Below are positions 4,101-63,393 of a stretch of DNA of 64,000 nt, piece after piece (the first letter of the stretch is position 1; each line of letters opens with the position of its first letter). Both the position numbers and the translations under genes were made by a program. The stretch is taken from contig OZ020491.1 of the NCBI GenBank assembly GCA_963971405.1, positions 10,906,855 through 10,970,854 of the forward strand, given 5' to 3'. A model generated the notes under the pieces. It was not told the DNA's origin. It did no database searches and saw nothing but the letters and a program-made list of their open reading frames with translations. Source of the stretch: Psococerastis gibbosa (lineage: Eukaryota > Arthropoda > Insecta > Psocodea > Psocidae).

Positions 4101-6743
4101 CTACCAATAGGAAAACTACAAATGCCAACGGCCTTACCATGTTGATTCCATTAGAGCAGAGCATGTTCCAAACTGCGGCAACTTGGTAGTGTGCACAGCG
4201 TTGGCAGGGGAACCTGGTGGGACATGATAACTCGCTCAGGCAGTATAAGTCGAATCCTGGTCACCTCCGATTTAATCGTGTGACTTTACCATGTTCCCCA
4301 AGTGGTTCGGAATCCACTATAATCAGGAGGTCCACCCTGTTAGTCAACTCCCCTTTCCCCGAGGTGAAAGAGTCTGCCCTTAGGGTGCCTCAAGTTAAAA
4401 AACAGACTCACTCCCCCCGCCAGGCTGACAGGGTTGCTTAATGCAGAAATGCTGAAAGCAGGCGTTAGAAACAACAGGAAAACTACAAATATCTTATAAT
4501 CAAGAATAACTATTTTAAGTATTTATGCAAAATTGTGGGAAACACACAGAATAAGAGGCAACTGAGAAATGAAGACATATTGCGACAGCCTATAACGCAT
4601 AACAAGTATGGCAGACGCCTTAATGACTCAGTTTTACCAGAGATATAACAAATTGCCACTTAAACTAAAAAAATTGAATAAAATAGGGAAAAAGAAAAAA
4701 AGAAATAAAAAATACTTAATTTCAAATACAGACTATTAGCCACAATTATCTTGTCTTTCATATAGGGATCTCATTCATTTGGCAGGAGGCTAGAGTGGCT
4801 GCTCTTTAATGGCTTATTATTATTTACCATTAATTAAAATTATATCTTGCAGTGCCACTGCTCTATGATCGCTCGAAAAGGCGGCAATTCCACCGACCTC
4901 GTTTTTCATAATGCACGTGCATGACCTGGTAGCAGACATCAGTCTCTGTCATATTTTAAGGAGATTATAATGTAGATACTTAACTTATCTATTATAAATT
5001 AAGTTATAATATGGTAGAGACTTATTAATGATGTCTACTACCACGTCAATGTCACGTGCATTATGAAAAACGAGGTCGGTGGAATTGCCGCCTAAGCGGA
5101 AGTTTGAACATAACAAATTTTTTCAATATATGTCCGGGGTTACCGAACAGGGGAAAAAGTGAAAGTGAAGTGGGCTTTTTATGGACGTAGGCGACCTTTT
5201 AGTGTGCTGAGTTTTTGTAAGTAGGATCGTGTGGGTTGGTTAGGCGCCTATTCCACCGACGTCAATAGTTCACTATTGACGTGGTAGCAGACATTAAAGA
5301 CAGTGTAAAAATGTCTGCTACCACGTCAATATCAGCAATATTTTGACTATTGACGTTGGTGGAATAAGCGCCTTAACAGCTATCGGGATCGCACTGGACA
5401 ACTATTACTTAGTTTAATTTTTAGGCATGCAGGAAGATATTCACCGTCGCATTCAAGTTCACGAGACGAACCCGCAGGTCTTCTCTATTTTCCTAAAATA
5501 TCTTTACTCGGGAAGACTGGGATCCTCCCCGACTGGCGAACAGCTTGCTGAACTTCTGCTGCTAAGTGATCGTTACGAAGTGGACGACTTGAAGACTGCA
5601 TGTGAGGAAGCCCTGAAAACCTACTTAAACGGGGACTCGCTCTTTGACCTTTTACAACTGGCTGACCAATTTAACGCTCTTTCATTGAAGGTTCGTATGT
5701 TAGACCAGTGTCTGTCTTGTTATATCCTTGGCGCTTTTTACATTGCGTTCTGATCTTTCGTAAGCTGTTAAATGAAAAACGTATTGTTTTCTGTCAAATG
5801 ACCTTTTTGAATTGTTGTTTTTTCAAAATTATATAAAAAAAACTATTTAAGAATAGTATATCGGCAGCCCAAAATTTAATATTTTATTTTATTAACTAAG
5901 CAAGGTATTAAAGATTTGGCTCATTTAAGTTGTAGAAGACTACTTCGTGCATAATATTTTTAATTTTTAGTACCGTAGCTTTTTCATAAACATGATAATA
6001 ATTTATGAACAATAAATCCAACAAGGGAGTTATTTCTCTGGCATCGAAGCAAAAACCAAAAAACCATCGTCTTCCTCGATTTCAGCAATCTTGTGCAGAG
6101 CTCATAAAAGACGAGCCTTCCTTACTTTGCCAAGACGTTTGTCGTGATCTGCCTACAAAGTTGGTGAAGGAAATTCATAGCTGGACTAAGCACGCCTCCC
6201 CACGAAACCGATTCTTCCGCCGCGATGCCAAAGTTCACAGTCTTCTTTCCTTGTCTGGCAGAGTGCCCGGGAATCATTCAAGGTAAATATTTCACTACCC
6301 TGGTTGCTAAACATGCTGTCAACGTACATCTGACCTTCTGAGGTGATACAGTTGTATCTGTTTCCCATTACATTATCCAAAGGATTTGCCAACTTTCAAA
6401 GCAAGTTTGAAGCTAATTTCGACTTCAATGGCGAGGTCATGCGGTCTCATTACTCGATACGGGTACTAACCTACAGAGGCGACTGAAGAGGTCAATAGGA
6501 TACATTCATTAAATTCATTGTATGCGATTAACCTTTTTTTAATACAAAAATAGGTCAACCGAAGTTAAATAAACATAATTTTATATTTCTTTCAGTCGCT
6601 CAGATGAAATGAATGAAGCGGTTGTCAGACTGCGAAACGTTGTTGGAGATGCATTTTCCAGAAGCCACCTAGAGAACATTCTCCTGGCTGCTGACTTGGA
6701 TCTGAACCGAGCCCTTGATCTTTTCTACTTCACCAGCTCCTAA
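1114..6743 (+). CDS. BTB/POZ domain protein with C-terminal UBA-like segment (5' end outside window)
   Basis: Six exons join in phase: 1114-1294, 2043-2240, 3694-3898, 5425-5690, 6086-6282, 6596-6743 (stop TAA 6741-6743). All introns are GT-AG. They encode 397 visible residues. Residues 1-126 are helical and unassigned. The BTB domain covers about 150-265, with VETDVVFEVLEDGG, the hallmark HRVIVAARCDWFRRAL and FLKYLYSGRL. A BACK-like helical stretch follows (ADQFNALSLKQSCAELI, then VCRDLPTKLVKEI). The last 45 residues (VVRLRNVVGDAFSR to ALDLFYFTSS) look like a small three-helix UBA/CUE-type domain. BTB proteins commonly act as Cullin-3 adaptors; that role is inference here. The first exon opens with one base completing a codon, so earlier coding exons probably lie upstream, though an ATG exists at 1130. 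Introns carry a MITE, two hairpin elements and a SINE. A possible poly(A) signal AATAAA is at 6989-6994. I could not name an ortholog. Confidence 0.85.
1408..1632. mobile_element. Short TIR element (MITE) in BTB intron
   Basis: The ends read TATCGTCTCCCTAAAGTCAGAA on the left and TTCTGACTTTAGGGTGACGATA on the right, nearly perfect inverted repeats of about 22 bp. Between them is about 180 bp of AT-rich noncoding DNA. No superfamily assigned. Confidence 0.6.
2596..2989. mobile_element. Long-TIR MITE with TTAA flanks, copy 1
   Basis: Nearly the whole element is palindromic: it begins GGGCCAACCGGAGTCGCC and ends GGCGACTCCGGTTTGCCC. TTAA sits directly outside each end (2592-2595, 2990-2993). A close relative with the same TTAA flanks lies at 61819-62182. 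TTAA duplication is characteristic of piggyBac-type transposition; that assignment is inference. Confidence 0.75.
2994..3275 (-). mobile_element. Retroelement 3' fragment with hammerhead-like core
   Basis: The minus strand encodes TALTGHGPFRKHFPTKGYPI, followed by a Trp/Arg-rich stretch, reminiscent of the TGHGxF motif near non-LTR RT C-termini. Downstream on the same strand, 3045-3022 reads CTGATGA, a short GAT/ATC stem and GAAAC, then CCGGTA (see findings). Confidence 0.45.
3276..3600 (+). mobile_element. Non-LTR retroelement 3' end, copy 1 of 3
   Basis: The plus strand reads [19 protein letters not shown] and a degraded tail with stops, then the same noncoding 3' segment ending in repeated TTTATTTA. 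Two more copies are at 41585-41880 (-) and 60408-60779 (-). It is 5' truncated and dead. Confidence 0.7.
4129..4476 (+). mobile_element. SINE-B copy
   Basis: It runs from GGCCTTACCATGTTGATTCC through GGCAGGGGAACCTGGTGGGA, a B-box-like GTCGAATCCTGG, CACTATAATCAGGAGGTCCA and TGCCCTTAGGGTGCCTCAAG to a 3' end GCTGAAAGCAGGCGTT. Other copies: 17301-17675 (+), 45117-45425 (-), 29402-29550 (-), 34216-34325 (+), and a variant in the 26326-26770 retroposon. Confidence 0.7.
4880..5092. mobile_element. Fold-back element a
   Basis: The ends GGCGGCAATTCCACCGACCT and AGGTCGGTGGAATTGCCGCC are exact reverse complements. Arms of about 40 bp continue through CGTTTTTCATAATGCACGTG. The core carries a variant GGTAGCAGACAT / ATGTCTACTACCACG and a second internal palindrome around AACTTATCTATTATAAATTAAGTT. 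It lies in the BTB intron. Confidence 0.85.
5243..5372. mobile_element. Fold-back element b (TTA duplication)
   Basis: The ends are GGCGCCTATTCCACCGACGT and ACGTTGGTGGAATAAGCGCC. The arm GTCAATAGTTCACTATTGAC leads to GTGGTAGCAGACATT with its complement. TTA flanks both sides (5240-5242, 5373-5375). It ends 52 bp before a BTB exon. Confidence 0.85.
5886..6003. repeat. Half copy of the 21445-21725 palindromic repeat
   Basis: GTATTAAAGATTTGGCTCAT and GTTGTAGAAGACTACTTC match the left arm at 21475-21520. It sits in the last-but-one BTB intron; only one arm is present. Confidence 0.55.
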
Positions 6744-7081
6744 ATGACCTACCTAAATCTTCACCACCTGTTTTAGCCAATTATGTGACGAAGGTAAATT
6801 CGCACTCACTAATTGGGTTCTTGTACACGCACAAATTATTTTTTAAATATGTCGTAGAAAATTATGGACATTGTGCGTTCATCTTAAACCAAAGATCCCT
6901 CATGAGATATTACTGCAATCGAATTGCAAACATTTTGTTGATCCACTAGTCAATTCTGTAAGATGTGATCCGTATGGAAAGTATTCGTAATAAATACTGA
7001 ATGGTACCATCTACCGCCACTAGCTGTGCCGTACAGTATTATTTACCGCGATATTTCAACCGTTGAGGGTAGCCGCCGTTA

Positions 7082-7327
7082 GGCCCGGTACACAAGGCCG
7101 ATTCTCGCAAACGCGATTGGCCGACGCATTTTCCATTGGGCTAGCAGAAGATTTGTCGATTTTGGAAACTGGCTTGAAGCCGACCCAACGAAAGTGCACG
7201 GTTTTCCTCTAGACACGCCAGATAATAGAAATCTTCTGAAGTAAACTCTGTGTCTGTGGTTTGCACCAACCATTGCAATGGAAGACGTCGCCAAATCGCG
7301 AGTGTAACCGTCCGTGTGTACCGTGCT
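7082..7327. mobile_element. MITE with GGTACACA termini (TTA duplication)
   Basis: Starts GGCCCGGTACACAAGG and ends CCGTGTGTACCGTGCT, with TTA at 7079-7081 and 7328-7330. The inner sequence GGCGTGTCTAGAGGAAAAC (reverse strand) is shared with 49505-49735, a second copy in opposite orientation. The 3-bp TTA duplication would fit PIF/Harbinger, by inference. Confidence 0.65.
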
Positions 7328-7330
7328 TTA

Positions 7331-8095: not shown

Positions 8096-8440
8096 GACAT
8101 ACGAGACAATGGACCCCCGCATTTTCGGTTTTTGCACAGGCAATTTCTTATGACATTTCAATCGTGGAGTCATGAATGAGACGTAGTAACACCAATTAGC
8201 TATAGTTGTGGAACTCCTTCGACCTGGCATTCTCATGGACCGTTATTTTAAATAAAGCAAGTTCCATAACTGTGCCGAGCGGTGTTGGTGACGACACCAT
8301 AATGTGCATCACAACGTAGAGGAATATATTTTCTAGTTAATGACACCTTATTTGACGCTCTACCATCGATATTTTATGATATATTTGGCATTGCGCAAAA
8401 ATGGAAAATTTAGGGCTCCTTTGGCTCTTAACGGCTCCGA
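8096..8440. mobile_element. Diverged relative of the TTAA-flanked MITE
   Basis: Near its right end CGATATTTTATGATATATTT, AAAAATGGAAAATTTAGGGC and GGCTCTTA track the homologous end of the 2596-2989 copy. The middle has the same ACCGTTATTTT and CCGAGCGGTGTTGG-type landmarks. Heavily mutated. Confidence 0.4.
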
Positions 8441-8489
8441 AACCTGGAATCTTACTGTCAATGACGCAAACTGCGAGTATTGGATAGAA

Positions 8490-10243: not shown

Positions 10244-10530
10244 GGTGCCCATTCCACATACGTACAACGTCAATGAAAATTATGAAATTGAAGGGCATTT
10301 CAATTTTACTCTATGCCATTGATAAAATTGATCAATGATCAATTGATAATAGAGTAAAATCACAAACAATGAAACAAACAATCTAAAATTAAAAAATGGC
10401 GTCATGTGATATGACAAGTACAACTATTTTAATTGATTTCTCTAAAAAGAAAGCATTTCTGTATAAAAATTATAATAAGGATTAAATAATAAGGCGACGA
10501 AGAAAACAAATACAATTTCAAGAAATAAAT
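10244..10530 (+). mobile_element. Fold-back element o1 (one arm only)
   Basis: Begins GGTGCCCATTCCACATACGT and continues with ACAACGTCAATGAAAATTAT and the TGATCAATGATCAATTGATA core. It matches 14675-15090, where the reverse arm also occurs. The right arm has been replaced by repeat R4. Confidence 0.6.
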
Positions 10531-10535
10531 AAGCC

Positions 10536-10830: not shown

Positions 10831-11904
10831 TCTGGTTTTAGAATACTTATATATTCTAGACATGTTACCACATCCGGAATAACTATGTTTTACTCAGCCC
10901 GGAACCAATATTGAAATGGGAACAAAGTATCATATCCCATTAATTGGCTAAGCTTAGGGCTTAGGCATAGGCATGCATTTAAAGTTTAAAAAGTTTACAT
11001 GCGAAAATTTCGATGAGTTCAAAAATTGGCGGGAAAAAAGTTTTGCCAACAAGAATGAAGTGTGAAATTTGAAGGTAAAAAATTAACATTTTAAGTAAAT
11101 AATAACCGACTAGGGTCTAGGGCTCGAAAACAAAAAATAATGCGTTATTTTTTTATTATTGCAACATGCGTATCTTTGCGTATCTTTTTCGCTTCCATTG
11201 CGTATAATTTTAATTTTCCGAACGGCAGCCCTGTTGTAAATAGCGGGTAAATAGCCCTAGCCCGCCCTAGCCGGTTGGTCGAATGTGCGCCTTTTCGCCT
11301 TAACAATTTTTCCCTCCAGAGCATAATAAATATCCTGCAACCCACTACCCCCTGCATGTAATAGGTAAGTAAATGTCTGGTCTTCATCAGTTATAGCTTT
11401 CGCCACTAAGAATAGTTTAAATGAGCTCACCCATTTTAGTTTTTACCCACATCTTGGCGGCGTCTGCGTCATCAACATCAAATTCTGGTATCTTGTCCAT
11501 CTTTCCGTTAAACGTGGTTAAAAACTCACTGAAATATTCCAAATTATCCTCGTCGCCAATGTAACAGCTTCTACTTAATAATTAATATAGATTTAACTTA
11601 AAAGAAAAGATTATAATTCAAACATCAAGCCTTCATCGCATAGATCAAAACCATAGACAACTGACAAAAGAGTTAATGACTACTATGGGTGTTTATTATA
11701 GATCATTACAGTGGCTAATAATGTTTTACGAAGGGTGTCCTAACCTGTCAAAACTATTTTATCATTATAGATTTATGCCATAATAGGCTAGGCCTACTTA
11801 CTAGCTACCTACCTAGCTTATAAGTAATCCTAAAATACAATTAATTACAATATTACCTTTCATTGGATTCTTAATGTTTCAATATTTGGTAGATTTCTAC
11901 AATT
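10831..11904. other. Mostly unassigned intergenic DNA with one solo hairpin end
   Basis: Only 11228-11293 is recognisable: TAAATAGCCCTAGCCCGCCC and a degenerate GGTTGGTCGAATGTGCGCC resemble the right arm of fold-back elements f and k. The rest shows no gene. Confidence 0.4.
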
Positions 11905-12458: not shown

Positions 12459-13067
12459 GGCGGCTATTCCACCGACTAATTTGCTTCACTAATCGTGGAC
12501 TCGTGGTAGCAGACACATTAATAAGTCTCTACCATATTATACGATTCAATAAATGCTGGACTGCCTCCTTAAATTGTTACTAAGCATGTGTCGGGACTTT
12601 TGAAACTTTCGGAACAATTGGCTCTACCCCTCCAACGAGGAAGGTGTACAACTTACAAGTTCCAGAATTTTAAAATATAGCCTAAAAGTAAAACCTCCAG
12701 CACTCATTTTTATCAATAGCTTTTCATGGTCCTTAAACGTTATTATAAGCCTAAATTCAATAAGTATGTACTGTATTCTGATCATAGCATAATGCGGAAT
12801 TGATTATAGGTAAATTACTTTTAGGCTACCGATTTTTTTTTATTATTATTTTTATTTTATTTTTAAGCGCGGGTCCCTGTTGGGAATTTGAACTAGGAAA
12901 TTGGGAATGTTTACCGATTATTTAATGGTATTAGGTGGGTGGTCCATGGGGTCCGGACCCCCCCCCCCCCCCGAAAACAAAATGGGCACGGCCTTGCCTG
13001 TGGCCCTACGAAAATTAACTGCCTTGGTGATCAGATTAACGAAATATTGACAAGTGGAATAGCCGCC
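12459..13067. mobile_element. Fold-back element c (expanded)
   Basis: Left end GGCGGCTATTCCACCGACTA after TTA; right end TTGACAAGTGGAATAGCCGCC followed by TAA. The left half keeps GTGGTAGCAGACACATTAAT. The interior (about 12540-13040) is unrelated DNA with a poly-C run, so the element has been rearranged or invaded. Confidence 0.6.
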
Positions 13068-14674: not shown

Positions 14675-15090
14675 GGCGCCCATTCCACATACGTACAACG
14701 TCAATGAAAATTATGAAATTGAAGGACATTTCAATTTCTCATTTATGGGGGCCATTCCATATGTTTTTTCAAAAATTGACAATTTTCAATTGAAGCGTAT
14801 GTGCCAAATTTTTGAAATTTGTTTGCATTTGTTTCTTGAAATTGTATTTGTTTTCTTCGTCGCCTTACTATTTAAACCTTATTATAATTTTTATACAGAA
14901 ATGCTTTCTTTTTAGAGAAATCAATTAAAATAGTTGTACTTGTCATATCCCATGACGCCATTTTTTAATTTTAGATTGTTTGTTTCATTGTTTGTGATTT
15001 TTACTCTATGATCAATTGATCATTGATCAATTTTAACAATGGCATAGAGTAAAATTGAAATGTCCTTCAATTTCATAATTTTCATTGACG
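14675..15090. mobile_element. Fold-back element o2 (right terminus lost)
   Basis: Left end GGCGCCCATTCCACATACGT. Its arm ACAACGTCAATGAAAATTAT returns inverted at 15068-15090, where homology stops at ATTGACG and an RT fragment begins. The core GATCAATTGATCATTGATCA is shared with o1, f, i, k and n. Confidence 0.7.
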
Positions 15091-15480
15091 ATGTGAAGAG
15101 TGGAGAACACTAAATAGGCTTAGAACTGGAGTCTCGAGATGCAGATACACGCAGAAGAAATGGGGTTATATTGAGGACGAATTATGTGACTGCGGGGAGG
15201 TCCAAACTGCTGATCACCTTCTCGTATGCAGAGACATGGGCACTGTTTGCAGTGTAGCTGACCTTTTTGTATGCAACGACAACGCCATCAAGGCCGCAAA
15301 GTTTTGGAAAATGATCTGACGGTCCGGACACGGAAATTGAATTATATTGACGATGTACGTATGTGGAATGGGCGCCTTACGAAAGAACACTCACACAGCA
15401 AGTTGGTGACTATTTTGAAAATTAAAAAAAAAATAGCGGAAAAAAGTTTAGTTGTGTGGTAGGCCTAGGTATTATTTGAT
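15091..15480 (+). pseudogene. Non-LTR RT C-terminal scrap
   Basis: The plus strand encodes LNRLRTGVSRCRYTQKKWGY then CDCGEVQTADHLLVCRD, the zinc-knuckle-like CxC..H..C tail of non-LTR RTs. It joins directly to the broken edge of fold-back o2. Confidence 0.65.
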
Positions 15481-16525: not shown

Positions 16526-16792
16526 GGCGCAAATCCACCGGCGATTTTACTTCATTTATGATTTCAGATTTTTTGTTTGTTTTGTTTTTAGGAGACTATT
16601 ATGTAAATACTTAACTTATCTATTATAAATTAAGTTATAATTTGGTAGCAGACATCATTAATAAGTCTCTATCATATTATAACTTCATTTATAATAGGTA
16701 AGTTAAGGATCTACATAATAGTCTCCTTAAAACAAAACAAACAAGAAATCTCAAATCAGAAATGAAGCAAAATCGCCGGTGGAATTGCCGCC
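16526..16792. mobile_element. Fold-back element d (nested)
   Basis: Left GGCGCAAATCCACCGGCGAT and right ATCGCCGGTGGAATTGCCGCC. The inner arms GGAGACTATTATGTAAATAC / ATCTACATAATAGTCTCC and ACTTAACTTATCTATTATAA are shared with element a. The tip has TTGGTAGCAGACATCATTAA. Confidence 0.8.
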
Positions 16793-20529: not shown

Positions 20530-20595
20530 GGCGCTTATTCCACCAACGTCAATAGTGATAGTAAATGTAGTATTGACGTTGGTGGAATAAGCGCC
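20530..20595. mobile_element. Fold-back element e (minimal, TAA duplication)
   Basis: A 66-bp copy: GGCGCTTATTCCACCAACGT ... ACGTTGGTGGAATAAGCGCC with perfect arms. TAA sits on each side (20527-20529, 20596-20598). It lacks the GTGGTAGCAGACATT core, so only the outer arms remain. Confidence 0.85.
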
Positions 20596-23585: not shown

Positions 23586-26500
23586 TCACCAAAAGTTGAC
23601 GGGAAGTCGATCTGGATGAGGGGGTATTTTTTCTTCGCGGACAACTTTTTGTAAAAATGTTTCCAGACGAGCCAGCGGTCCTGAGAAATTGCTGTCAGTT
23701 AGCTGGAATGTGAAAAAATAATTAGAAAGTGACTAGATTTCCCATTTTTGAGATCGAGTATTCTCAAATTAGAAGGCCGCCCTGGTATGGCATATTTTGT
23801 GCCCGAGTAAGAACGGATACTTGCACCGTTTCTACCTTGCAGAATCTCGAATCTACCGTGCATGTGGGCTGGCTAATGAGACACTTGAGCACATCCCCCA
23901 ACAGTTCCCCTTGCATACAACGTGCCATATTACCCCATCAGGTTCAACACAATTATGGTGGACTTCGGCGCCCATTCCACCAACCGGCTAGGGCTATTTA
24001 CAAAAACGGTGACGCGGTAGCAGACATTCAAGACTTAGGTGGCGTTTCCACCGATCTCGCATTGCAGAATGCAAATGACATTGACGGAAATGTTTGTTTT
24101 TCTTTTTATAGAAATCTATTAAAATGTTTGTAATTAACATATCCCATGACGCCATTTTTTAATTTTAGTTAGTTTGTTTGTGATTTTACTGTATGATCAT
24201 TGATCAATTTTAACTATGGCATAGAGGAAAACAAACATTTCCGTCAATGTCATTTGCATTCTGCAATGCGAGGTCCATGGAAACCCCGACTAAGTCTTGA
24301 ATGTCTGCTACCACGTCACCGTTTTTGTAAATAGCCCTAGTCGGTCGGTGGAATGGGCGCCTTCACATGCATGTGGGTACTAGCAGAAAGGGCATTTCTG
24401 AGACATCAGGCAATCGGCATCACCTGTGCTAAGAAGTAAGTAAGGAAATGACTTCGACGGCTGGACGCTGCCTAATAAGAGACCTCGGCGCCCTTGACTG
24501 GCATTGGTAGGCGCATAGTCCACAGACCTCGTTTGTGATAGTGATAGTTATTGACGTGGTAGCAGACATTTTTAGACTATCTTTAATGTCTGCTACCACG
24601 CCAATATCACTATCACAAACGAGGTCGGTGGAATTTGCGCCTTAGGTCATGCCAAGGCCTTTAGTGTCAGGCGCAAGGTGATTTCCCTTTTAAATAGTAT
24701 TACTGTTTATGCAGCATTGATTTTGCTCTATAGATTGGTGCAGAAGTCCAGTTTTTTATAAATCTTCTAATTTCTGCTACAATTTACAGAGTCATATAGG
24801 TGCAGTAATACTCGTACAATTCTATAAATTTATGTCATTGGATCCCCACCAAACTGTGGCAACCAAGTGTTTTGGGTGGAGAATATGTCATTCATAATTA
24901 GGGACACGTAAAAGGGATAGTACATTTAAAGTGGCTGTTGTAGATCTTTTGTTGTTGATGTTGTGCATGTTAGTTTAGTCGTGTCCTAATGCGTCTATAT
25001 TGAAGCACTTAGTCCAAGGGCTGACACAGCTAAGGTGGAACCAGAGGGGCACAATGTAAAACCTCAGGTAACATAATGGAGAAGAACCGTGTTGCAACAA
25101 GGGGTACCGAAACGCAACTGGTTTCCTCCTAGGAAGAAAAACAGGTTAACCATGGATACGCTACTTGTAATCACGAAATGAGAAAACTCCATATTTTACG
25201 TTTATAGACTGTTAGACCAACAGTTACAAACCAAGAAACTGAAATTCCTAAGGCGGGGTTTCCACATACGTCAATGGTCAATGGTAAATATGGTTTTGAC
25301 GTGGTAGCAGACATTTTTAGTATGTCTTTAATGTCTGCTAAAACGTCAATACCATTTTTACCATTGACCATTGACGTATGTGGAAACCCCGCCCTACCAA
25401 GCAAAATGCACACAATGGGAAATGAGCAATAAACTCACCTTTTCTAAGGGAGGAAAATATTCCTGGCAAATATATGCAAGCATTTTCTTGAATTGTCCGC
25501 GATACGTCAGCCACAGATTATGACCAGTCACTTTTAGGAATTCCAAAATCAAAGCCGGGCAGACGTAGGACCGAGGTGGAAGATTAAGAATTGCCGCCAA
25601 CCACCGCCACGCCTCAGCCATTCCAAGCGGATGACGCTTCCCTCCTCGAGGTCCCGAAATCAGGACTGCGGCATAGAGACGCACCACACCTGTCATTCTG
25701 TTTAAGAAACTGTCCTCCTTCTCCATTATCCCATCAATCGCCTTATAACCGAGAGACCTGCAAAGAATGCTCAGTTAGGCGCGGTTTCCACCGACCTGCA
25801 AGTGCAAAATACACATACGGTGACGAGGTAGCAGATATCATTAATAAAGGCGGGGTTTCCACCGACCTCTCATTGCAGAATGCAAATGACATTGACGGAA
25901 ATTTTTGTTTCACTCTATGCCATAATTAAAATTGATCAATGATCATAGAGTAAAATCACAAACATACAAATTAAAATTAAAAAATGGCTTCATGGGATAT
26001 GTTAAGTACAAACATTTCAATAGATTTCTATAAAAAGAAAAATTCAAATTTCCGTCATGTGCATTCTGCAATGAGAGGTCGTCGGAAACCCCGCCTAAGT
26101 CTTGAATGTCTGCTACCACGTCATCGTATTTGTATTTTGCACTTGCAGGTCGGTGGAAACCGCGCCTTAGCATATTTCAGGTTATTTAAAAGAGTTAAGT
26201 TACGACACACAGTTTGAATTGAATTGAAAAACGAGTCTATTGAAAAGAAAGATTGGAGGGTAAAACCCCTAAAAATTGGGTTAGCCCAAAACAATATAGA
26301 CAATATCTCGAGAATTGATTTTTCTGGGGGGTGATGTGCAACTCTGGGAGGATGGACGGTCTACACCTTCAGGGGCCGGCCGCCATACTAAGTTAAGAAC
26401 CAGAGCAGGTTCAAAGCTGCAGATAACTTGGTCGTGTGCACAGTGCCGGTAGGGAAACATGGTAGGACTTGTCCTGGTTACCTCCGAACAAATCGTGTGA

Positions 26501-31115: not shown

Positions 31116-31169
31116 CTGCAACAAAATCCACACAACAATAAATACGATATTAAAGACTGCACAAATCAC

Positions 31170-31196
31170 GGAATATTGACAAGTGGAATAGCCGCC
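31170..31196. repeat. Solo terminus of fold-back element c type
   Basis: GGAATATTGACAAGTGGAATAGCCGCC followed by TTA nearly repeats 13042-13067. No partner arm nearby. It lies just upstream of the Gle1 first recognised exon. (Motif split here for length: GGAATATTGACAAG, TGGAATAGCCGCC.). Confidence 0.6.
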
Positions 31197-41400: not shown

Positions 41401-44400
41401 AAAAATCGCAGAGGCATCCTTTTGAGCGAGTCGCTACACCTTATCAGGTGTATAGTTGGGTTGCTCCAATGCTTGAACACACAGTCGATGCCATTCGCGC
41501 TGAAGATAGTAAGTATTAAATAACTAAATAAATAAACTTTTCTTTTAAATTGTACAATCAAGTAATCCACAAGAAAGAATAAGGTAAAATCGTCAAAATA
41601 TCGTCAAAATCAGGTAGTTCTGTCATTTTCATTGTGCTAGTGACAACATTCTCTAAGAGATGGTTTCTAAGCAATTTAGGGAAGTTAGTAGCATTTCTCG
41701 CCGCTCTCATTTCAATCGGGACTTTCCTAAGGTAGGCGAAACCTTATAGTATAGGATCCAGTCGCTCACACTTGGCTGTGCGTGGCGCTGGCCTTACAAG
41801 GTCTCCCCTTTGCCTCGTGGTGTAGGTGTGGGTGTCCCCATTTTGTTTAAATTTCTCCCACACCTCATGTTTAAGAAATTTAAAATGTATTCTAATAGTG
41901 AAGAATTTATAATAATAATAATATGCGTGTATTTATCAAAAAAACATTACAAATTTTACTAAACCGGTGCCAAAAAGGCGCGTTGGGATCACCACATATT
42001 TATTTAGCCTTATAATGGCCTAGTGTCGAAACCGGTATTTACAGTGTAAGTAGATCTTAACATTACTTGCCTGAATTGCGTATTTTTTATAAGGTCAATA
42101 ATATAATAGGTACTACGTATGTGTATTTGTTTCTATGTGTTATAACGTTACCTATCTTGTTTTAAGCTTTCTCATCGAAACTGGGTTATGAAGAGCACAT
42201 CCCCGGACAAACCAGAGACTGGAATGAAGAACTGCAGACAACTCGCGAGCTTCCACGAAAAAATTTACCCGAAAGACTTCTTCGAGAACGCGCCATTTTC
42301 AAGGTTCATGAACGCATTATCTCATGATATTAATTCACAAAGTCCGTCCTGTCTGTCCATGAATACCCAATACTGTCCTTAGGGGGGTATTCCATATACG
42401 TACAACGTCAACGAAAAATTGAAAAATGACGTTTTAGCAGACATTAAAGACATACTAAAAATTCTGCTACCACGTCAATTTACGTCATTTTGACGTCATT
42501 TTTCAATTTTTCGTTGACGTTGTACGTATGTGGAATGGGCACCTTATACAAGGGCGATCATATTGAACTGATACTACTCCACCAGTCCCAGCACAGAAGT
42601 CCCTAGCAACGCACTCATAAAATACCATGGGCTCGCCTGACCCTAACAGCATAGACGGTAGAGTAAAATAGACATAGCAACCCATTATAAATAGAGTTTC
42701 ATCGTCCCTTTTTTCACTTACTGTCGTCTGCTAATGGACGGATATTCATTTTTCCGCTGTGGCGCTTCCAGCGTTCCCGCCGAAATTCAAACACTTGATC
42801 GTCTGGTTCTTTTTAGCAAGTAATCGTTAAAAAAGATTAATGAGTTACATTTGTATATATTTACATGTATATTGACATATATATTGCCGACCAGTTTTTT
42901 TTTTGGTTTTCTGAACGTCTAAGCGCAGTATGCTAGCAATCTATTTAGGGGTTTAAAAAATCTGCAGTTTCCGTTGAAATTTGCCAAGTTCTTCAGCTAG
43001 CTGCCCAGTGAGTAATCCATATGTGCTACCGCGTAGAACTTTTTAACATTTTCTTGTTAATTCCAGGTTCACAGTGACTTTGTGGCGGCCGCTACTCGAG
43101 GTGCTATGGCGGTTATAGACGGGAATGTTATGGCGATAAATCCAGGCGAAGAAACCAAAATGCAGATGTTTATTTGGAACAACATCTTCTTCTCATTGGG
43201 ATTCGATGTTCGCGACCACTACAAGGAGTTGGGTGGCGATGCTGCTGCGTTTGTTGCACCCGTAAGTGTTACGTACTGAGCCCATGTAGTTCTCAACCCA
43301 CTAAACACGCTACGCGCCTAAAAATAGAAAAAATTTACTCGGTGCAACCCAACTAGATCTCGGTTATTTGATAATACCGTACCCTTTGAGTTGTACTACG
43401 GTGATGGTAACACAACTAAAAAAATTGGCATGGAATTTTCTCTGCGCCGAGATAGGCATAGTACAGGCTCTGTTTTTTCTTATCATGGGCATAGCCTTAT
43501 AGACGCATGCCAAGAATCCACTAGGTTCGGCACGAAGTATAAAGCCTGGTTTCCAGTGTGACTAGAGCAATATGGCGCCCATTCCATTGACCGGCTAGGG
43601 CTATTTCCAACAACGGTAACGTGGTAGCAGACATTTAAGACTTAGGTAGCGTTTCCACCGACCTCGCATTGCAGAATGCAAATGACACTGACGGAAATTA
43701 GAATTTTTCTTTTTATAGAAATCTATTAAAATGTTTGTACTTAACATATCCCATGAAGCCATTTTTTAATATTAGTTTATTTGTTTGTGATTTTACTGTA
43801 TGATCATTGATCAATTTTAACTATGGCATAGAGGAAAATAAACATTTCCGTCAATTCTGCAATGCGAGGTCGGTGGAAACGCCACCTAAGTCTTGAATGT
43901 CTGCTACCACGTCACCGTTGTTGGAAATAGCCCTAGCCGGTCAATGGAATGGGCACCTATTGAGGATTAGAATGTGGCAAGACGTTATGGTAGACAGAGT
44001 CGCCGTTCGTAGGATGGTGACGGGTCGAAAGTGATAGCGCCAAAAGTCAAGTCAGTTCCGCAGTCAAACAATTTTTCGAAGAAAGACCTTCACATTACTT
44101 ATAATAATACACCACCCGCCGATTTGCTAAGACACTTCAGGCTCCCGAGCCAAAATAAATAGGCTGAATAAAGAAAGTCAATTTTTTTATTTCAGAAAAA
44201 CGACCTTCAAGGTGTTCGTGTCTATAGTGCTGTTGATTTGCCTGGGCTGTACACTCTAGGAACGGTTGTGATCGATTATCGAGGATATCGCGTGACTGCA
44301 CAATCGATAATTCCGGGCATCCTCGAAAGAGAGCAGGAGCAGTCTGTTGTGTATGGATCAATTGATTTCGGCAAGACTGTCATTTCACATCCGAAGTATA

Positions 44401-47400
44401 TGGAACTTCTCAGCAAGGCTGGTCACCAATTGAAAATTCTTCCTCACAAGGTATTACAACAGACAGTACTAACTATTATTATTATGAAATGTTTGTTCGC
44501 TGTTGTCGGTGTATGAATCATTTGAACAGCGCGAGCTAGTACCCTGGAGTGCATAGGACTTATAATAGTAGACTTTCCTCCCAAGTCCAAGTAAGCCGAG
44601 CAGAGGCACTTCCTTAAAAGTCGGGGTTTTGGAAAACGAGGTTTTCGAGGTGCTCGTTCCTCAGCTTTGAGAGTGAGGGGCATTCACAAAGTATGCAAGG
44701 GTGATCACGTATTTGGTTGGGTTGATCAGGCCAAATTACAATACTTACTGGGATCGTTGCTATTAGATTTTAAATGCGTGAAATGTCTGTTGCAGGTTTT
44801 AAACGACAAAGATGAAGAAGTGGAGTTGTGTTCAAGTGTCGAGTGCAAGGGAATCATCGGAAACGATGGGCGTCACTACATACTCGACCTTCTGCGAACC
44901 TTTCCTCCTGATGTCAACTTTCTTAAGGTGGAAGGTGAAGAATTAAGTAAGGTGAGTGTTGCCGTAGTCCTTCCTACTTATCTGCATTACTAGGCTACAC
45001 TTGACATAGGCACATGTCTATGTCTCGCGCTCGAGCGTGTTTACGAACTTGTCAATAAACTGGCAAGAAATATTCCTAATTTCCAATAGGATTATACGAA
45101 AACAATTTCGTTCGTTTGTTTTCCAACGCCTGCTTTCAGCTTTTCTGCTTGAAGCAACCCTGTCAGCCTGGCGGGGGGAGTGAGTCTGTTTCTTAACTTG
45201 AGGCACCCTAAGGGCAGACTCCTTCAACTCCGAGGGAAGGGGAGTTGACTGACAGGGTTGACCTTCTGATTAAATTGGATTCAGAACCACTTGCAGAATA
45301 TATTAAAGTCACACGATTAATTCGAAGGTGGCCAGGACTCGATACGCTCTTAGACTGACTGGTAGAACAGCGCATTATCATGTCCCACCATGCTCCCCTG
45401 TCACCGCGGTGTACACTACCCTGCAGTTTTGAAGTTTACCCTTGGGTAAAATATTTAAACGGGCACAAATTTAAAATTGGTTTGTGTCCTTCCCCCTCCA
45501 GCACTAAATAAGGACTTTTTATTGTTTCTATTACTAAGCCAACCTAGCGGAGTTAGGGCTATAAGGCCTCTTACACTCAACTATGGTTATTTGTTCATGA
45601 TAAAATAATTTTACAAAGTAATCTTCTATATTGATGGTGATTAAGATGTTAATTTTTCAATGCCGAAGAGTGAAATATTGAATTTGTTTCATATTGTTCT
45701 AGGAGGTTGTTGCATTAGGTTTCCCTATCGAACACAAACACAAACTCTGCTGTCTCCGCCAAGAGCTAATTGATTCATTTGTGGAAGCGCGCTACATGAT
45801 GTTCATCAAATTTGCTGCTTTTCAACTTCAGCAGTTGGGCGTGAAGAAGCAGAAGGAACGCGAAGCAAGGAGTAGCCAGGAGAAGGAAATTAAAAAAGGT
45901 AAACTTGATGAATAACCCCCGTTTTTAGGGATTTTGGGTCGGCAGACTTACCCAATGAGGTTCATTTGCGTAGTCATTTTGTAGATGGCAGCACCAGTTG
46001 CTAAGATATCAAAGCGTTGATTTTTATATAAATATTTACTCTATGGATTTTTCCATAAGCCTCAATAATATTTTAAAATTATTTTATTTATGTATTATTT
46101 TAAAGTGATATTTTTCTATAAACCATGGAGAATATATTTATATTAAATTGTATGCAGCGCAATAAGGTCCAGGCATAGGACAAATATTATAAAAAATATT
46201 AAAAGAATTAATTAGATGCTATGAACTTAGTTTTCACATACAAACGGCGGCCATTTTGAATAATATGGATATCTTATTGTCGTCAGCGATCCTAGTGACC
46301 AAAATTGTCCCTACAGAACCTTATTGATAGCTCCACCATATTTCATGTGTATTGAAAATTGAACAAAAAATGGATGGTCGGGGTGTCGTGCTGTCACTAA
46401 AATAGGCTTTTTCTCTCATTGTTAAAATTTACTTCGTATAGTCTTACAATAAAATTAAATTAAAAACACAACCGGTTTCGGCTCACGCCATCGTCAAGTG
46501 CGATTGAAAAAAGGTAAACAAAAGGTATGCAAGCTAAAACAAAATAAAATAAAACTCATTGTCAGGATAATACACAGCATCGCATAAAGTAAATAATTTA
46601 AATTGAACAATTAAACATTAACCAATGGAAGCGCCAACAAGGGGGAACTACTTAAAAAGGTTATGTCATTAAGTAACGTTTTGTTTTTAACCATAGCTTC
46701 CCTAATCTCAATGGTTTCTAAATTATCAAGAAGTTTCCCCTTGTTGGCTACATGTAAGATCTTAAAATTATCGAAATCACAGGCATGGTTGTGGGTGTTT
46801 ATATGTTGGGCTAAGGCGGACTGTGTCGGGTTTTCCTACCCCCCGTCTATGCTCCGCTATTCTTTCTTTAAACCCTCTCCCAGTTTGTCCAATATATAAA
46901 CTACCACAATCATTACAGTCTAGTTGATAAACCCCTGACTTCCTCCCTTTCTCCAATTTAGGTTTACAATTAATCAATTGCTTACCCAACGAGTCCACAG
47001 AATAAAATGACACATTTTTAACGACCCTATCTCCAATCCAAGAGGCCAACTCCAAACTAATCCTACCAAGATATGGTAACTTAACGTACCCTTTATCTGG
47101 TTCAGAAGTCTGGCTTGCTCCATAGACTAAAGAGAGGGTTAACTTATTCCTGTGTTTCCGTAAAATATTTTTTACTAGACTCACAGGATATCCATTATTA
47201 TTAGCAATTTCCATAATTGTTGAAAGTTCTTGGTTAAAATGTACAACCGTCAACGGTACATGTAAGAGTCTATGTATCATGGAGTGTATGGCTGCATGTT
47301 TGTGTTGTGGTGGGTGAAACGAATCCTCTGGAATGATATTGTCTGTATGAGTAGGTTTTCTGAATATATTGTACCCTAGTTTACCATTATCCATCCTTGT

Positions 47401-50400
47401 TATAGTTAGGTCCAAGAAATTAATCGACCGGTTCAACTCTATCTCCCTAGTAAATTTAATCTTCGGATGCAAGTTATTAAAATGCTCTAAAAGTTTGTCT
47501 AATTGACGGTCGCTACCTCGAAAAATTATAAAAATGTCATCAACATACCTAAAATACGCCAGGATATTACATAATAGATTATGGCGCGAGTTAAAAAATT
47601 TTACTTCGAGGTCGTTCATAAAAATTTCCGCCAAAATAGGAGAAAGAGAGGAACCCATCGCCAACCCATCCTCTTGGTGGTAAAAACTATCCCCAAATTG
47701 GAAATAATTCTGATTCAGAGTTATTTCCAATAAGGATTCAATTTCTATCCTGACATTGGGATGTATGTTTTCATGAGTCATTAATTCCCTAACTATATTT
47801 CTAACATCCAAAATGGGGATATTCGTGATTTCGATAATTTTAAGATCTTACATGTAGCCAACAAGGGGAAACTTCTTGATAATTTAGAAACCATTGAGAT
47901 TAGGGAAGCTATGGTTAAAAACAAAACGTTACTTAATGACATAACCTTTTTAAGTAGTTCCCCCTTGTTGGCGCTTCCATTGGTTAATGTTTAATTGTTC
48001 AATTTAAATTATTTACTTTATGCGATGCTGTGTATTATCCTGACAATGAGTTTTATTTTATTTTGTTTTAGCTTGCATACCTCTTGTTTACCTTTTTTCA
48101 ATCGCACTTGACGATGGCGTGAGCCGAAACCGGTTGTGTTTTTAATTTAATTTAATTGTAAGACTATACGATGTAAATTTTAACAATGAGTGACAGCAAG
48201 TTGTACAAAGTTACTAAGGAGACTATTATGTTTATAGGCTTTTTCTCGTCACTTCATTTTGTTAAGCAAGTGAAACTATTATTTCTTTTCAGTGGATAAA
48301 GATAAGGAGAAAGAAAAAGAGGGTGAACTAGAAGCGGATGAAGCCAAAAAAATTGTTGAAAGTATCACAGATTCGATTACCGGAGACAAACAAGAACTGG
48401 AGGAAAGTACCAAAGAAATCGTCAGAAAAGCTGCGCTAGCTGTTTGCTCATTGAAAGAGTCAGAGTTTGACGTTCGGTTCAATCCTGACGTGTATAGCCC
48501 GGGTGTTCGCCATGTGGGCGAGGATGGTGAACGGCTGAAGAAGGAGAGGCAATTGGTGAAAGACGCTTCAGCGTTTTTGGTGACCACGCAGATTCCGACG
48601 TTCATCAGGGACTGTCTAGATCATTCTTCTGCGCCCTTAGATGGTACGACGCTGTCTGAGGCTTTACACACTCGGGGTATCAATATCAGGTGAGTTCTCA
48701 ATGTGAATTATGGCGCTCTTCTTTTTTAAATAGGTTCTGATGAAGACCTAGGAGACTGCTGTTCTGAAAATGGAAGTCATGCTCTTACCAAATCAAACAA
48801 GGTTTCTGAACCAGTTCAACTATATCTTGCCTTGGTGCGGTTAAAAGTAATATCTCTCCTATAGAGCTCTATTAAGACCTGTTATTGGCTTATATTGTAT
48901 TACATTGTGATTATTATTATATCTATTCACACTGGAAGTTACGGAGATTTATTGAAATTTTGTGTGTCAGATACCTAGGAAAGATCACATCGATGTTAGC
49001 TAAAGTGAAGCAGCTTGAATACTTGTACTACATCTCAGTGTCTGAGCTGATCACGCGATCTGCCAAGCACATCTTCGCCATGTACATGCAGTCCACAGAC
49101 ATGATGAGTCTCAGTGCGTCTGTCAGCCACTTTCTGAACTGCTTTCTGTCCTCCTGCCAGGTAAGGTATTGTTTGCAGTAGGAACGTATTAGGTTTGTCA
49201 AAAAATTAAGTCAAACATTTAGTCATTGTACCAAGTCTTCAAAAAAATAAGAAATTAAATTTATGGTCAGAAATATTATTACTATTCCATATAAGGTACT
49301 AAGTTCTGGGCACTTGACCTTGGGTCCATAGCCATCTTAATACCTAAATTTGGACTATATTGGGCTTATGGCGAGAACCATCCGCTTAAACTAGGAAACA
49401 ACTTATTGCTGCTTAATTGCATGTGCTGTGGATGACCATCCAGCTAGCCTGAGTTCTGTACTTAAGCATCGGAAATTATATGAGGCTAATTTTGGTCAAT
49501 CAGCTTCTCAAAATTGCACCCGGTACACACGGGTGATTTTTGCTGTCGGGATTTGCCGACGTCTTTTTCATTGTAAAAATAGGGCTAGTAGAAGTTTTTT
49601 GTCCATTTCTGAACAGTCTTCTTCAGAAGATTTCAATGAGCTGGCGTGTCTAGGGGAAAACTGCACTTTTGTGCTGTCTGCTTCACGCCAGCTTCAGAAC
49701 CCTCGAACTTGTATTTTTTCTTAAGTATACCGGTAGTATATAGGTAGTCATCATAATGGTGTTTCTTGGCTACAGGTACCACATCCTCAGCAAACGACAG
49801 ATGAACTCCAGAGCAAGGGCGCCAAGAAGAGGAACAAGAAGCGTGGCAAGATTCCATTGCTGGCTGAAAGTAACAAATGGACCAACTTGACCCCCAAAAA
49901 TTTGTGGAGTCAAATAAGAAGCGAACTGAAGGCCTACTATGACTGGGACCTGCCTTGTGACAACGTTGAAGCTTGCATTGAAACTTTTGGACTGCAAAAA
50001 ATTTCACTTTTGAGATCGTTCTGCGTCAAAACTGGCATTCAAATTTTAATGCGCGAGTACTCGTTTGATTCGAAGAATAGGCTGACATTTTTGGAGGAAG
50101 ATATCCTAAATATGTTCCCAATTGTGAAACATATAAGTCCTCGTGCTACCGATGCGTATAATTTCTATACGACGGGGCAGCAGAAGATACAACAAGGGTA
50201 CTTGAAGGAGGGCTACGAGCTGGTGAGCGAAGCGCTCAATTTGTTGAACAATGTCTACGGAGCGATGCATCCGGAGATTGCGCAGTGTCTGCGCATGTTG
50301 GCACGCTTGAATTATATTATGGGAGACCACGTGGAGGCTATGGCATATCAACAGAAGGCTGTGCTTATGTCGGAGAGAGTCAACGGCATAGATCATCCTT

Positions 50401-56531: not shown

Positions 56532-56671
56532 GGCGGCGTTTCCATTCACTTCGTATTGCAGAATGCACATGACTTTGACGTGGTAGCAGACATTAAAGAC
56601 TTATTAATGATATCTGCTACCACGTCAACGTCATGTGCATTCTGCAATACGAGGTCAATGGAAACGCCGCC
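56532..56671. mobile_element. Fold-back element l (TAT duplication)
   Basis: GGCGGCGTTTCCATTCACTT ... GGTCAATGGAAACGCCGCC. Arms GTATTGCAGAATGCACATGA / TCATGTGCATTCTGCAATAC; tip GTGGTAGCAGACATTAAAGA. TAT at 56529-56531 and 56672-56674. Confidence 0.87.
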
Positions 56672-60368: not shown

Positions 60369-60869
60369 AGCGCTTATTCCACCAGACGTCAATAGTTCAC
60401 TATTGACAATACAATATATATTTCCTTTAAATTACACAATACATGTAAAGTATAAGATAAAATCGTCAGTGTCGTCAAAATCAGGTAGTTCTGTCATTGT
60501 CATTGTGGTAGTGCCTCAGTGACAGTGTAGAAAGCTTTCTCTAAGAGATGGTTTCTAAGCATTTTAGGGAAGTTAGAAGCATTTCTCGCCGCTCTCAGTT
60601 CAATCGGGAGTTTTCTAAGGTAGGCGAAACCTTGTAGTATAGGATCCAGTCGCTCACACTTGGCTGTGCGTGGCGCTGGCCTTACAAGGTCTCCCCGTTG
60701 CCTCGTGTTGTAGGTGTGAGTGTCCCCGTTTTGTTTAAATGTTCCCCACACCTCAGGCTTTAAGATAGTACGTGTTAAGATTGACGTGGTAGCAGACAAT
60801 TTTTACACTGTCTTTAATGTCTGCTACCACGTCAATAGTGAACTATTGACGTCTGGTGGAATAAGCACT
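60369..60869. mobile_element. Fold-back element m, split by a retroposed insert
   Basis: Outer ends AGCGCTTATTCCACCAGACG ... CGTCTGGTGGAATAAGCACT with TTA on both sides (60366-60368, 60870-60872). Arms and tip match element b. The left arm is cut at 60407 and resumes at 60786. Confidence 0.85.
60402..60785 (-). mobile_element. Non-LTR retroelement 3' end, copy 3 of 3, inside element m
   Basis: ATTGAC is duplicated (60402-60407, 60780-60785) around 60408-60779. The minus strand encodes [40 protein letters not shown] and RNHLLEKAFYTVTEALPQ. 5' truncated at arrival. Confidence 0.82.
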
Positions 60870-60989
60870 TTACTTGAGTGTCTAGTCCAGCATATGGAAC
60901 ACTGCCATCGGTTATTTCATGAAGTTGAAGAATAAGGTAATACTAATCGCTATAGTAGGCCGGCAGATGTGATTTGATACTCGATAGTT

Positions 60990-61200
60990 GCTCAGCGGGC
61001 CTACTATGGCGATTTTTTTTAATATTAACCTGGGATTAAAAATGTCAAAAACATAATTTTACAATGGAAAGTACTATTCAATATTGTTTTGTTTACATTT
61101 TTAACCCCACGAATAAGTTATAATAATACCAAACGGCTTAGTATGCTCGCAGATATATACCTTAGTACAGTAATAATAAGCTAAAATAAAAAAATTAATT
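60990..61200. repeat. Fragment of the CAGCCC-terminal MITE
   Basis: GGGCCTACTATGGCGATTTT and TATTAACCTGGGATTAAAAA resemble one arm of 35633-36003 / 38397-38763. Confidence 0.35.
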
Positions 61201-61818
61201 ACACCATATGTGACAATAGTGATAATGCAAAGCAAAAAATTGTGTTTCTTATATTATTCAAACTTCTGTCTAAATATCACAAAGTAATCATGGAGATGAT
61301 TACCTGCATACCAGAATAACACAATGCAATTTAATTCGAAGTGCTCGCCTTAGTGGCCGCGTTAAGGGGTATATGTCAAACAAATTTGTGAACAAAAATG
61401 GTCATGTATTTTTGATGAAATAAATTTATGTCTGGTTCCACAGTCGCAAACTTATAAAAGTAGTCCGATAAGAAATTCCAAAAAATGCAAGCTTTCTCCA
61501 AAGCTGCCTAATTCCTCTACTGATTTACTACTAGTCTATAAAATAGGGTTAAGGTACTTAATTGTTTTTTTTTAATTAATAATATTTCCGGTAAGAAAAT
61601 GTCAATGTCTGAAATACGAAATCTAGTATTTGTTGTAAAGTTGTCATCGGACCACTTTCATATATTTGTGGCTGTTGAACGAGACATTAATTGATTTCTT
61701 CAAAATACACGACCTTTCCTCGTTTATATCTGTTATAATTTTCTGTTTGTTCAAACCAACCAGATTGTTTGAATCCCACTCGCATCATAGATGTGAAAAA
61801 CGTTCTCGACACTCTTAA

Positions 61819-62182
61819 GGGCAAACCGAAGTCGCCGATATTCCATTTCTGTGCAAACTTCAATTTCTCATGAAATATCGAACGTAGAACAATGACAAAA
61901 TGCTGAGTCGCAAGAAGGATTTTTTTCTCCTAATTTTGATATATAGTGTCAATCAATACCGATCGGCTATAGTTAGTGAACTTGATACGCAAAAAATAAC
62001 GGTCACTCAGGAGTTCATAAACTGTGGCGAATTGGGGTTAGTTAAGGCCACATACTATATATCAAAATTAGGAGAAAAATTTCTCGTTGCGACTCAGCAT
62101 TTTTTCATTGTTCTGCGTTCCATATTTCATGAGAAATTGAAGTTTGAACAGAAAATGTAATATGGGCGACTCCGGTTGGCCC
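61819..62182. mobile_element. Long-TIR MITE with TTAA flanks, copy 2
   Basis: GGGCAAACCGAAGTCGCCGA ... GGGCGACTCCGGTTGGCCC with TTAA at 61815-61818 and 62183-62186. Arms of about 110 bp. The two arms match the two arms of the 2596-2989 copy in swapped order. Confidence 0.78.
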
Positions 62183-62859
62183 TTAACCGACTGCTGCACA
62201 TGGTGGGTTGGTCACCTTAAATATATGAGCTAATGTCCTTGCAAGGATTAACTTAAGTTATCTTGCAATTAAGACACCAACGATTTTTTAGAATATTTTT
62301 GGTAGTCAAGGAATGTAAAATGTCCTGTCTTCTGCAGTGTATATCAAATATAGTAGTTTGCAATACAGAAATTGATTACAACGAAACAGATTCATAAATT
62401 CAAGGATTGGAACATGCTGTCTGAGTACACCAATACGTGCTAGTCTTGGTCGTTGTGATGGGAGATGATAGACGCTTGGCCAGTAATTTCCTTGGCGAAA
62501 AGGACAGTTGAAGTGCTTCCTTAAAAATCATAAAAACCACGCTATCTATACATTCAGACGATGTGGTATTTTAACTTTGGATTTCCTTTCCTACCTTAAA
62601 TAAAATTGTTTATACAAATGACCGTGACCGTAATATCTTAAGAGTAGTAAATAAATCTCAAGTAGTGACTTGTAGAATTTAGTGGCTTATAAAATAAGTA
62701 TCGTTTGTTTTGATGAATTTTTTTTAATAGTCCTCCAACGTGTAGAAATCATAGGTGTCATTTCCTTAACAAGGAGTGCGAATTTTACAATTGATCGCCT
62801 ATTTTTAGTTATCAATTCAAAAAATTGAAGAGGCGACCTCCTCGTTATAACTGAAATTA
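62183..62859. other. Gene-free stretch
   Basis: No exon or repeat assigned. Confidence 0.4.
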
Positions 62860-63393
62860 AAGAATCAAGAAAAATCTGGACTTGGCGGGATTCTAACAGG
62901 TTTCAACTTAAGTCTATCTTATAAATTTGTAATTAAAATAAAGCATTGCGTTTATGTAATACAATAGCTCGCAGACCTGTTCGGAGAGATAGTTGTGTAG
63001 CTGTGCTAAGGCGCGGTTTCCACCGACCTCTAAGTGCAAAATACACATACGGTGACGTGGAAGCAAATACCATTAATAAAGGCGGGTTTCCACCGACCTC
63101 ATTGCAGAATGCAAATGACATTGAAGGAGATTTTTGTTTTACTCTATGCCATGGTTAAAATTGATCAATGATCATAGAGTAAAATCAAAAACAAAAATTA
63201 TGTCATTTGCATTCTGCAATGAGAGGTCGGTGGAAACCGCGCCTTACCTGTCTAACAATACGAATCATATTAAAGAGCATGATATAGAGAGGATCGAGTG
63301 AATTCTGGTCAGGGCGGGCTTGTGGTGTTAGTGGTAGCCCGATGCCCCGGCAAGAGAATCCAGCCAAGTCCAGATTTTTCTTGATTCTCTAAT
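62860..63393. repeat. 34-bp inverted repeats enclosing fold-back element n
   Basis: AAGAATCAAGAAAAATCTGG..ACTTGGCGGGATTCT at 62860-62893 returns inverted at 63354-63393 with a few differences. It may be a separate TIR element into which element n inserted. Confidence 0.55.
63010..63243. mobile_element. Fold-back element n (nested)
   Basis: Outer left GGCGCGGTTTCCACCGACCT, right AGGTCGGTGGAAACCGCGCC. It contains an inner left end GGCGGGTTTCCACCGACCT without its inner right end, so one inner arm appears lost by deletion. Core TGATCAATGATCA. Flanks TAA and TTA. Confidence 0.8.

Follow-up and report, generated by a model that had tools for sequence, protein, structure and literature searches.

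The stretch of DNA analysed here, referred to as the window, comprises 64,000 nucleotides of contig OZ020491.1 of the insect Psococerastis gibbosa (assembly GCA_963971405.1, positions 10,906,855 to 10,970,854). It is animal DNA, with chromobox, GLE1, BTB and TPR exons and reverse transcriptases; among the 120 or more chromobox matches, of which the best-known sources are mostly arthropods where a name is given, those listed showed 51-68% identity. The window carries a family of hairpin elements whose two inverted arms match within each copy; how these arms stay matched is the subject of this report. A first-pass annotation had counted about 16 hairpins plus solo ends. The family and its ends are real, but the number of hairpins is 14, four of which contain a nested inner element, and they are accompanied by single or unpaired ends at 10244, 11291, 12459, 13067 and 31196 (Table 1).

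The hairpin family and its insertion sites

The ends of the family consist of GGCG, a variable triplet and (A/T)TTCCA, and are found on both strands of the window; this end form can also be given as GGCGNNNWTTCCA, with 3-bp duplications. The core, GTGGTAGCAGACATT, is present at 24 places in the window when up to 3 mismatches are allowed, versus 1.44 expected, and none of 100 shuffles reached 24. The matches at 24769 and 61427, with 3 mismatches each, look like chance. In most window elements the core adjoins the loop, and the paired core previously described as part of the layout holds for most of them, but the hairpins at 20530 and 14675 have no core and the one at 16526 has one core, in its loop. 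Elements in the window measure 66-702 bp, and their arms mostly 45-75 bp with the core included (about 130 bp in E16). None of the eight open reading frames (ORFs) of at least 150 amino acids (aa) in the window lies inside an element. Genome-wide (409 Mb, 68 contigs) the exact core occurs at 26,337 places, compared to 3 for the reversed control, and at 1,639 places two exact cores face each other, separated by 8-30 bp. The family is thus a very large set of non-autonomous hairpin transposons with 3-bp target duplications, in other words miniature inverted-repeat transposable elements (MITEs): short, with inverted ends, a fixed-length target duplication, no gene and a high copy number. A search of viral contigs with a 19-mer gave no match, and the prokaryote 15-mer matches, among those listed, were consistent with chance and were not used.

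Table 1. Elements and ends of the hairpin family in the window (TSD, target-site duplication; LINE, long interspersed nuclear element)
Feature	Position	Strand	Description
E04 hairpin	4880..5092		outer arms pair perfectly over 41 bp; centre of the 16526 type
E05 short hairpin	5243..5372		asymmetric, left and right arms differ in type; TSD TTA
E10 single end	10244..10306	+	arm as in E14, then long spacer
Single end	11264..11291	-	arm type f (composite outer arm)
Two ends	12459..13067		only GGCGGCTATTCCAC in common; no matching 3-bp duplication
E14 hairpin, long spacer	14675..15376		right arm split by LINE-like stretch (by eye, about 15097-15350) between ATTGACGATG duplications
E16 hairpin	16526..16792		single core, in loop
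Simple hairpin, 66 bp	20530..20595		family ends, no core; TSD TAA
E23 composite	23967..24361		arm type f1; TSD TTC; nested inner element 24038-24290
E24 short hairpin	24510..24641		left/right asymmetry common to E24 and locus L154
E25a short hairpin	25252..25393		asymmetric core (GTTTTAGC on one side) common to E25a, E42 and L125
E25b composite	25778..26166		arm type B; TSD TTA; inner element 25849-26095, spacer orientation opposite to that of E23
Single end	31168..31196	-	96.6% over 29 bp to the end at 13067; adjoins ORF of GLE1 gene region
E42 short hairpin	42382..42543		E14/E10-type arms; TSD TTA
E43 composite	43574..43957		arm type f3; TSD TAT; inner element 43645-43886
E56 short hairpin	56532..56671		arms resemble those of inner elements; TSD TAT
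E60 hairpin	60369..60869 (ends approximate)		left arm split by LINE-like stretch (by eye, about 60399-60779)
E63 composite	63010..63243		right side shortened; inner right arm bears outer terminal triplet; inner element 63081-63243

Window elements carry E numbers, and sampled copies outside the window carry L numbers. Short hairpins were sampled from the window and from the first 15 Mb of the sequence designated C1 (20 + 29), and a further sample contained 11 + 5 composites from C1, nine 10-kb stretches and eight 3-kb loci. This yielded 57 distinct short hairpins, of which 51 with two usable ends were counted; six with a missing or broken end were dropped. The ends could be scored for target duplications in 48 of the 57, and the 3-bp duplications reported before were exact in 28 of these, whereas 3 matched over 2 bp only and 17 showed no match. 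The exact duplications were TTA (17), TAA (7, four of which lie in one larger repeat), TAT (2), TAC (1) and GAA (1). TTA and TAA, the 3-bp TWA pattern of PIF/Harbinger elements, therefore make up 24 of the 28, with 20 of the 48 hairpins lacking an exact 3-bp match.

Of note, eight of the 48 hairpins (L178, L181, L179, L144, L171, L125, L138 and L177) are flanked by inverted TAA..TTA instead of a direct 3-bp duplication. Inspection by eye revealed no further palindrome outside the ends of these hairpins, so copying past the end is unsupported, and the flanks possibly reflect a 2-bp TA duplication with an extra A or T, or recombinant flanks. One subfamily (L140, L145, L146, L150 and L157) occupies a fixed site inside a larger dispersed repeat, and the five copies read show identical left-right differences. 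The LINE-like stretches in E14 and E60 resemble, by eye, LINE C-terminal fragments and are bounded by ATTGAC-containing duplications; the 60500-60802 stretch in E60 gave no Pfam match.

Arm matching within copies and symmetric differences between subfamilies

The first-pass annotation had noted that the two arms co-vary within copies. This was confirmed in the 51 hairpins, since the own left-right p-distance was 0.070 compared to 0.192 for shuffled partners, the lowest of 5000 shuffles being 0.157. By itself, such matching is no proof of ongoing conversion. For 46 of the 51 copies (one tie included), an arm from elsewhere in the sample was at least as close as the copy's own second arm, which was the closest in only five. 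Within the six subfamilies, which took in 32 copies with 19 remaining outside clusters of three or more, the own-arm distance was 0.0607 versus 0.0602 between copies, and in 99.8% of 5000 shuffles within subfamilies the distance was equal or smaller. The composites, hairpins that hold a related element in their loop, gave the same kind of values for own and other arms in their types f1 (0.0615 and 0.0608), f2 (0.0517 and 0.0474) and f3 (0.0417 and 0.0417).

Private changes were located on the left arm only in 49 cases and on the right arm only in 63, and a single one affected both arms, with different bases, where 1.59 were expected in 1940 cells. When each copy was compared with its nearest relative, 45 of the 51 were without a symmetric site, and the totals were 22 symmetric sites, from six copies, versus 47 left-left/right-right sites. 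Sixteen of the 22 came from E42 and E56, for which the sample contained no close relatives. Because own arms are not closer, private changes are one-armed and symmetric sites between nearest relatives are few, the copies undergo ordinary decay after insertion. Moreover, since they form subfamilies in which the arms of other copies are as close, the present pairing is mostly inherited from founders. The earlier idea that resident copies keep their pairing while their sequences diverge is therefore not upheld.

Between subfamilies the situation is different. Sites at which the four arms of two copies split two to two were scored as symmetric, left-left/right-right or cross. Pairs less than 6% apart (n=72) showed 4 symmetric, 53 left-left/right-right and 11 cross sites, whereas the counts were 223, 12 and 12 for pairs 6-10% apart (n=137), and 7991, 84 and 87 for pairs more than 10% apart (n=1066). 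The founder consensuses of the six subfamilies differed at 56 symmetric sites and 1 cross site, with 0 left-left/right-right sites, in addition to 29 single-arm and 5 multi-state sites. A comparison of composite types gave 147 symmetric, 33 cross and 4 left-left/right-right sites for f1 versus f2, and 84, 6 and 1, respectively, for f1 versus f3. A simulation in which the arms change together on subfamily branches and independently thereafter reproduced the own and between-copy distances (0.055 and 0.204) as well as the symmetric sites between subfamilies, while a simulation with independent arms, in which the own distance was 0.215, did not reproduce the observed distances.

Different arms are also found around common centres. 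In their arms, E56 resembles the inner elements (89% over 47 bp) and E42 resembles E10 and E14 (91-93% over 44 bp). In their centres the grouping is different: the short core centre links E56 with E42 (87% over 53 bp), and the long spacer links E14 with the inner elements (79% over 172 bp). The window therefore holds every pairing of two arm types with two centre types (E56, E42, the E23 inner element and E14). The asymmetric core is likewise common to E42 and E25a. Because centres are common to different arms, many independent source hairpins, one of the explanations offered before, find no support as the main cause of the covariation.

Intermediate forms and the case for arm copying

The 22 distinct composites were oriented by their inner spacer, after removal of duplicates and one false match. 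As a separate observation, the four composites in the window hold the related element in the hairpin loop, with opposite spacer orientations in two composite types. Seven composites are of type f1 and six of type f2, which has CAG on the left and CGG on the right. L137 and L194 combine CAG with ACAACGG, and their 3-bp flanks match in L137 but not in L194. The three f3 composites (E43, L189 and L195) have ACAACGG on both arms, and the GGCG/GGTG difference at their termini persists in all three. L192 is intermediate between f1 and f2, and L214 lies between the f1 and E25b arms. In the genome, AAAAACAG was counted 1720 times and ACAACGG 2003 times, compared to 25 for the mixed form ACAACAG, indicating that the two neighbouring sites travel together. 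Among the listed places (191, first 17 Mb of C1), 25 copies had ACAACGG on both arms, 5 had CAG and ACAACGG, and 4 had CAG on both, whereas 123 places were without a listed partner.

The CAG arm changes sides relative to the spacer in L187, and also between f1 and f2, meaning that the spacer is swapped relative to the arms. Homogenised arms and inverted spacers, the two marks of template-switched inverted repeats, are thus both found here, the inversion resting on L187 and on the f1 versus f2 orientation; crossover between arms would yield the same inversion. The loops provide another indication. The commonest sampled loop, AAAGACAGTCTAAA, is asymmetric, and both of its reciprocal palindromic forms exist, TTTAGACNGTCTAAA at 106 places and AAAGACNGTCTTT at 39 (exact flanks), while the reversed controls gave 0. 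Finally, L183 is a hybrid: its left arm and the beginning of its loop are those of one subfamily, its loop end and right arm resemble another, and a TTA target duplication flanks it. In 9 of the 51 hairpins the left and right arms clearly differed in type, several of these being length variants of one type; L183 was below the threshold.

Symmetric founder differences and asymmetric intermediates together support arm-to-arm copying in mobile lineages. In what is probably the correct reading, one arm changes or is exchanged, the patch is copied to the other arm, and the symmetric product amplifies, so that the arms evolve in concert in mobile lineages. In such a scheme one arm would mutate, or would be swapped for that of another subfamily, the exchange point being a stretch common to both (TTGACG, TTCCAC or the loop). 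The element might then fold on its own inverted repeats, and an arm patch would be copied onto the opposite arm through template switching (during replication or gap repair) or through conversion or crossover between the ends. Such copying would sometimes run through the loop and sometimes invert the spacer. The symmetric product would be amplified into a new subfamily, and inserted copies would no longer be corrected. The putative transposase that moves the family would, in the best explanation, tolerate variation behind GGCG. That correction is seen between subfamilies but not in resident copies suggests a coupling to mobility, although the pattern would look no different if a long-lived master locus were the source.

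Several observations weigh against this scheme. L197 has AAAAACGG on both arms, and f3 could stem from the copying of one site only. The right arm of L183 is 6 edits away from the nearest type, and complete readings exist for few intermediates (L137, L194, L192 and L183). Between f2 and f3 there were 18 symmetric, 1 cross and 20 left-left/right-right sites, so symmetric sites are not in excess, because the terminal difference is common to both types. Left-left/right-right sites do not enter the distance on which binning and clustering are based, so the scarcity of symmetric sites in close pairs is in part a product of the method; the nearest-relative count, which is less circular, agrees with the binned counts. 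The simulation with perfectly symmetric founders lacks the excess of shared asymmetry seen in close pairs, and since the observed close pairs share more asymmetry than the simulated ones, founders were not fully symmetric. Most sampled hairpins lie within the first 15 Mb of C1, and the 49 obtained by search had been selected by an exact core on each side. We infer the direction and order of the steps without a rooted tree, and the data do not separate template switching, gene conversion and crossover.

The covariation could be plain subfamily structure, in which each subfamily descends from its own independent hairpin without arm-to-arm copying within a lineage. The first-pass annotation had named this, as a few subfamilies with ordinary decay, as what would explain the covariation away. 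It describes the resident copies well, but leaves the covariation between founders unexplained: different arms surround one and the same loop, asymmetric core or spacer, and the f1-f2-f3 series and L214 proceed by symmetric steps, asymmetric intermediates included, inside one nested composite. Because founders with a common loop, core or spacer differ symmetrically, and asymmetric intermediates exist, we consider it quite improbable that subfamily structure is the whole explanation. Two-sided exchange of arms between elements by recombination with no arm-to-arm copying, the route with two exchange points put forward for the Galileo X-E-X copies, is also unlikely, if slightly less so. It has a precedent in PMC3573991, and the 9 hairpins with different arm types, several of them only length variants, are what it would produce. 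However, the A-to-C substitution present on one arm of L137 and L194 sits in f3 on the other arm too, together with its neighbouring marker and with the terminal difference kept, and two outer exchanges leave the palindromic loops unexplained.

Arms might also be kept alike by gene conversion that continues after insertion. Own arms are indeed closer than random arms, and in E23 (beside E43 and E25b) the inner border between left arm and spacer looks copied from the right side. Yet this closeness disappears within subfamilies, the one double private change was not to the same base, and 45 copies are without symmetric differences from their nearest relative. On the within-subfamily and nearest-relative tests, ongoing conversion in resident copies was rejected, and in-situ homogenisation is very improbable. 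Hardly credible, finally, is selection for folding, by which compensatory mutations would maintain the pairing as in a structured RNA. The symmetric differences between subfamilies would fit, but private changes on both arms are not in excess, so the private-change test lends RNA-like compensation no support, and the symmetric changes arrive as neighbouring runs and whole modules. The arm-to-arm homogenisation suggested at the outset is therefore retained for mobile lineages, where the founder differences and the intermediates speak for it, but not for resident copies.

Related systems, search for a transposase and significance

PIF/Harbinger elements prefer TTA or TAA targets. The duplications found here are mostly of this kind, and the genome contains many DDE_Tnp_4 matches. 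Together with the 3-bp duplication given for PIF/Harbinger in PMC2213677, this fits a possible PIF/Harbinger affiliation. Seven Harbinger groups, obtained from 150 scored DDE_Tnp_4 matches (220 candidates), included none with GGCG..TTCCA ends of its own within 3.5-4.1 kb, and neither a partner transposase nor an active element of the family emerged from these groups. An E42-type hairpin sits inside a Harbinger element that has an open DDE_Tnp_4 frame, in six of six copies read (L198-L203; at 2574-2724 or 781-931); this element was considered as a partner and rejected, the hairpin being taken as a passenger. One Harbinger group has dozens of open copies with equal score (384 aa, 127.2 bits), which suggests recent activity. 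In the window, no Pfam match was obtained for the ORF next to the end at 31196, and since an ORF further along the same strand matches GLE1, the former was taken as a host gene. The reverse transcriptase (RVT_1) at 46777-47847, with a sub-threshold GIY-YIG match at its end, is presumably Penelope-like.

Arm copying has precedents. Galileo, a P-element superfamily transposon of Drosophila mojavensis, is described in PMC3573991 as having chimeric copies with the ends of two subfamilies, and one central region with the ends of three. It shares with the present family its long inverted ends, subfamilies, chimeric copies and a centre with different ends, but its ends measure hundreds of bp, its duplications 7 bp, its transposase is known, and its chimeras have mismatched duplications whereas those of L183 and L137 match. 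Inverted ends of hundreds of bp, as in Foldback/Galileo, are not found here. For ISWpi1 in Wolbachia, PMC3004938 reports end-to-end recombination that inverts the inside and makes the ends identical; this concerns a bacterial autonomous element, at 2 of 22 loci and observed in place, whereas here the effect is seen between subfamilies. In yeast, according to PMC8604942, template switching between short inverted repeats leaves two signatures that go together, homogenised arms and an inverted spacer, but these repeats are isolated host sequences and not a transposon family. Arm homogenisation in MITEs was not reported in the open-access literature on MITEs, fold-back elements, template switching and conversion, judged by titles and abstract openings among the matches listed. 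With Galileo, ISWpi1 and the yeast repeats as precedents, the hairpin family is a clear new example of a process already known from other transposons.

Going further, re-templating may be part of the life cycle, one arm being rebuilt from the other whenever a copy founds an amplifying lineage, for example by gap repair after excision or by replication of an extruded hairpin. The family would then be an engine that puts new ends on a conserved centre and renews its subfamilies via asymmetric mobile hybrids, a speculative extension that we regard as rather unlikely. Arguments about how inverted ends stay matched in diversifying families usually draw on a small number of long elements. In this family, thousands of short copies present apparent before, middle and after states of arm copying, reciprocal loops included, so that the rate, tract length and direction of arm copying could be measured in one genome.

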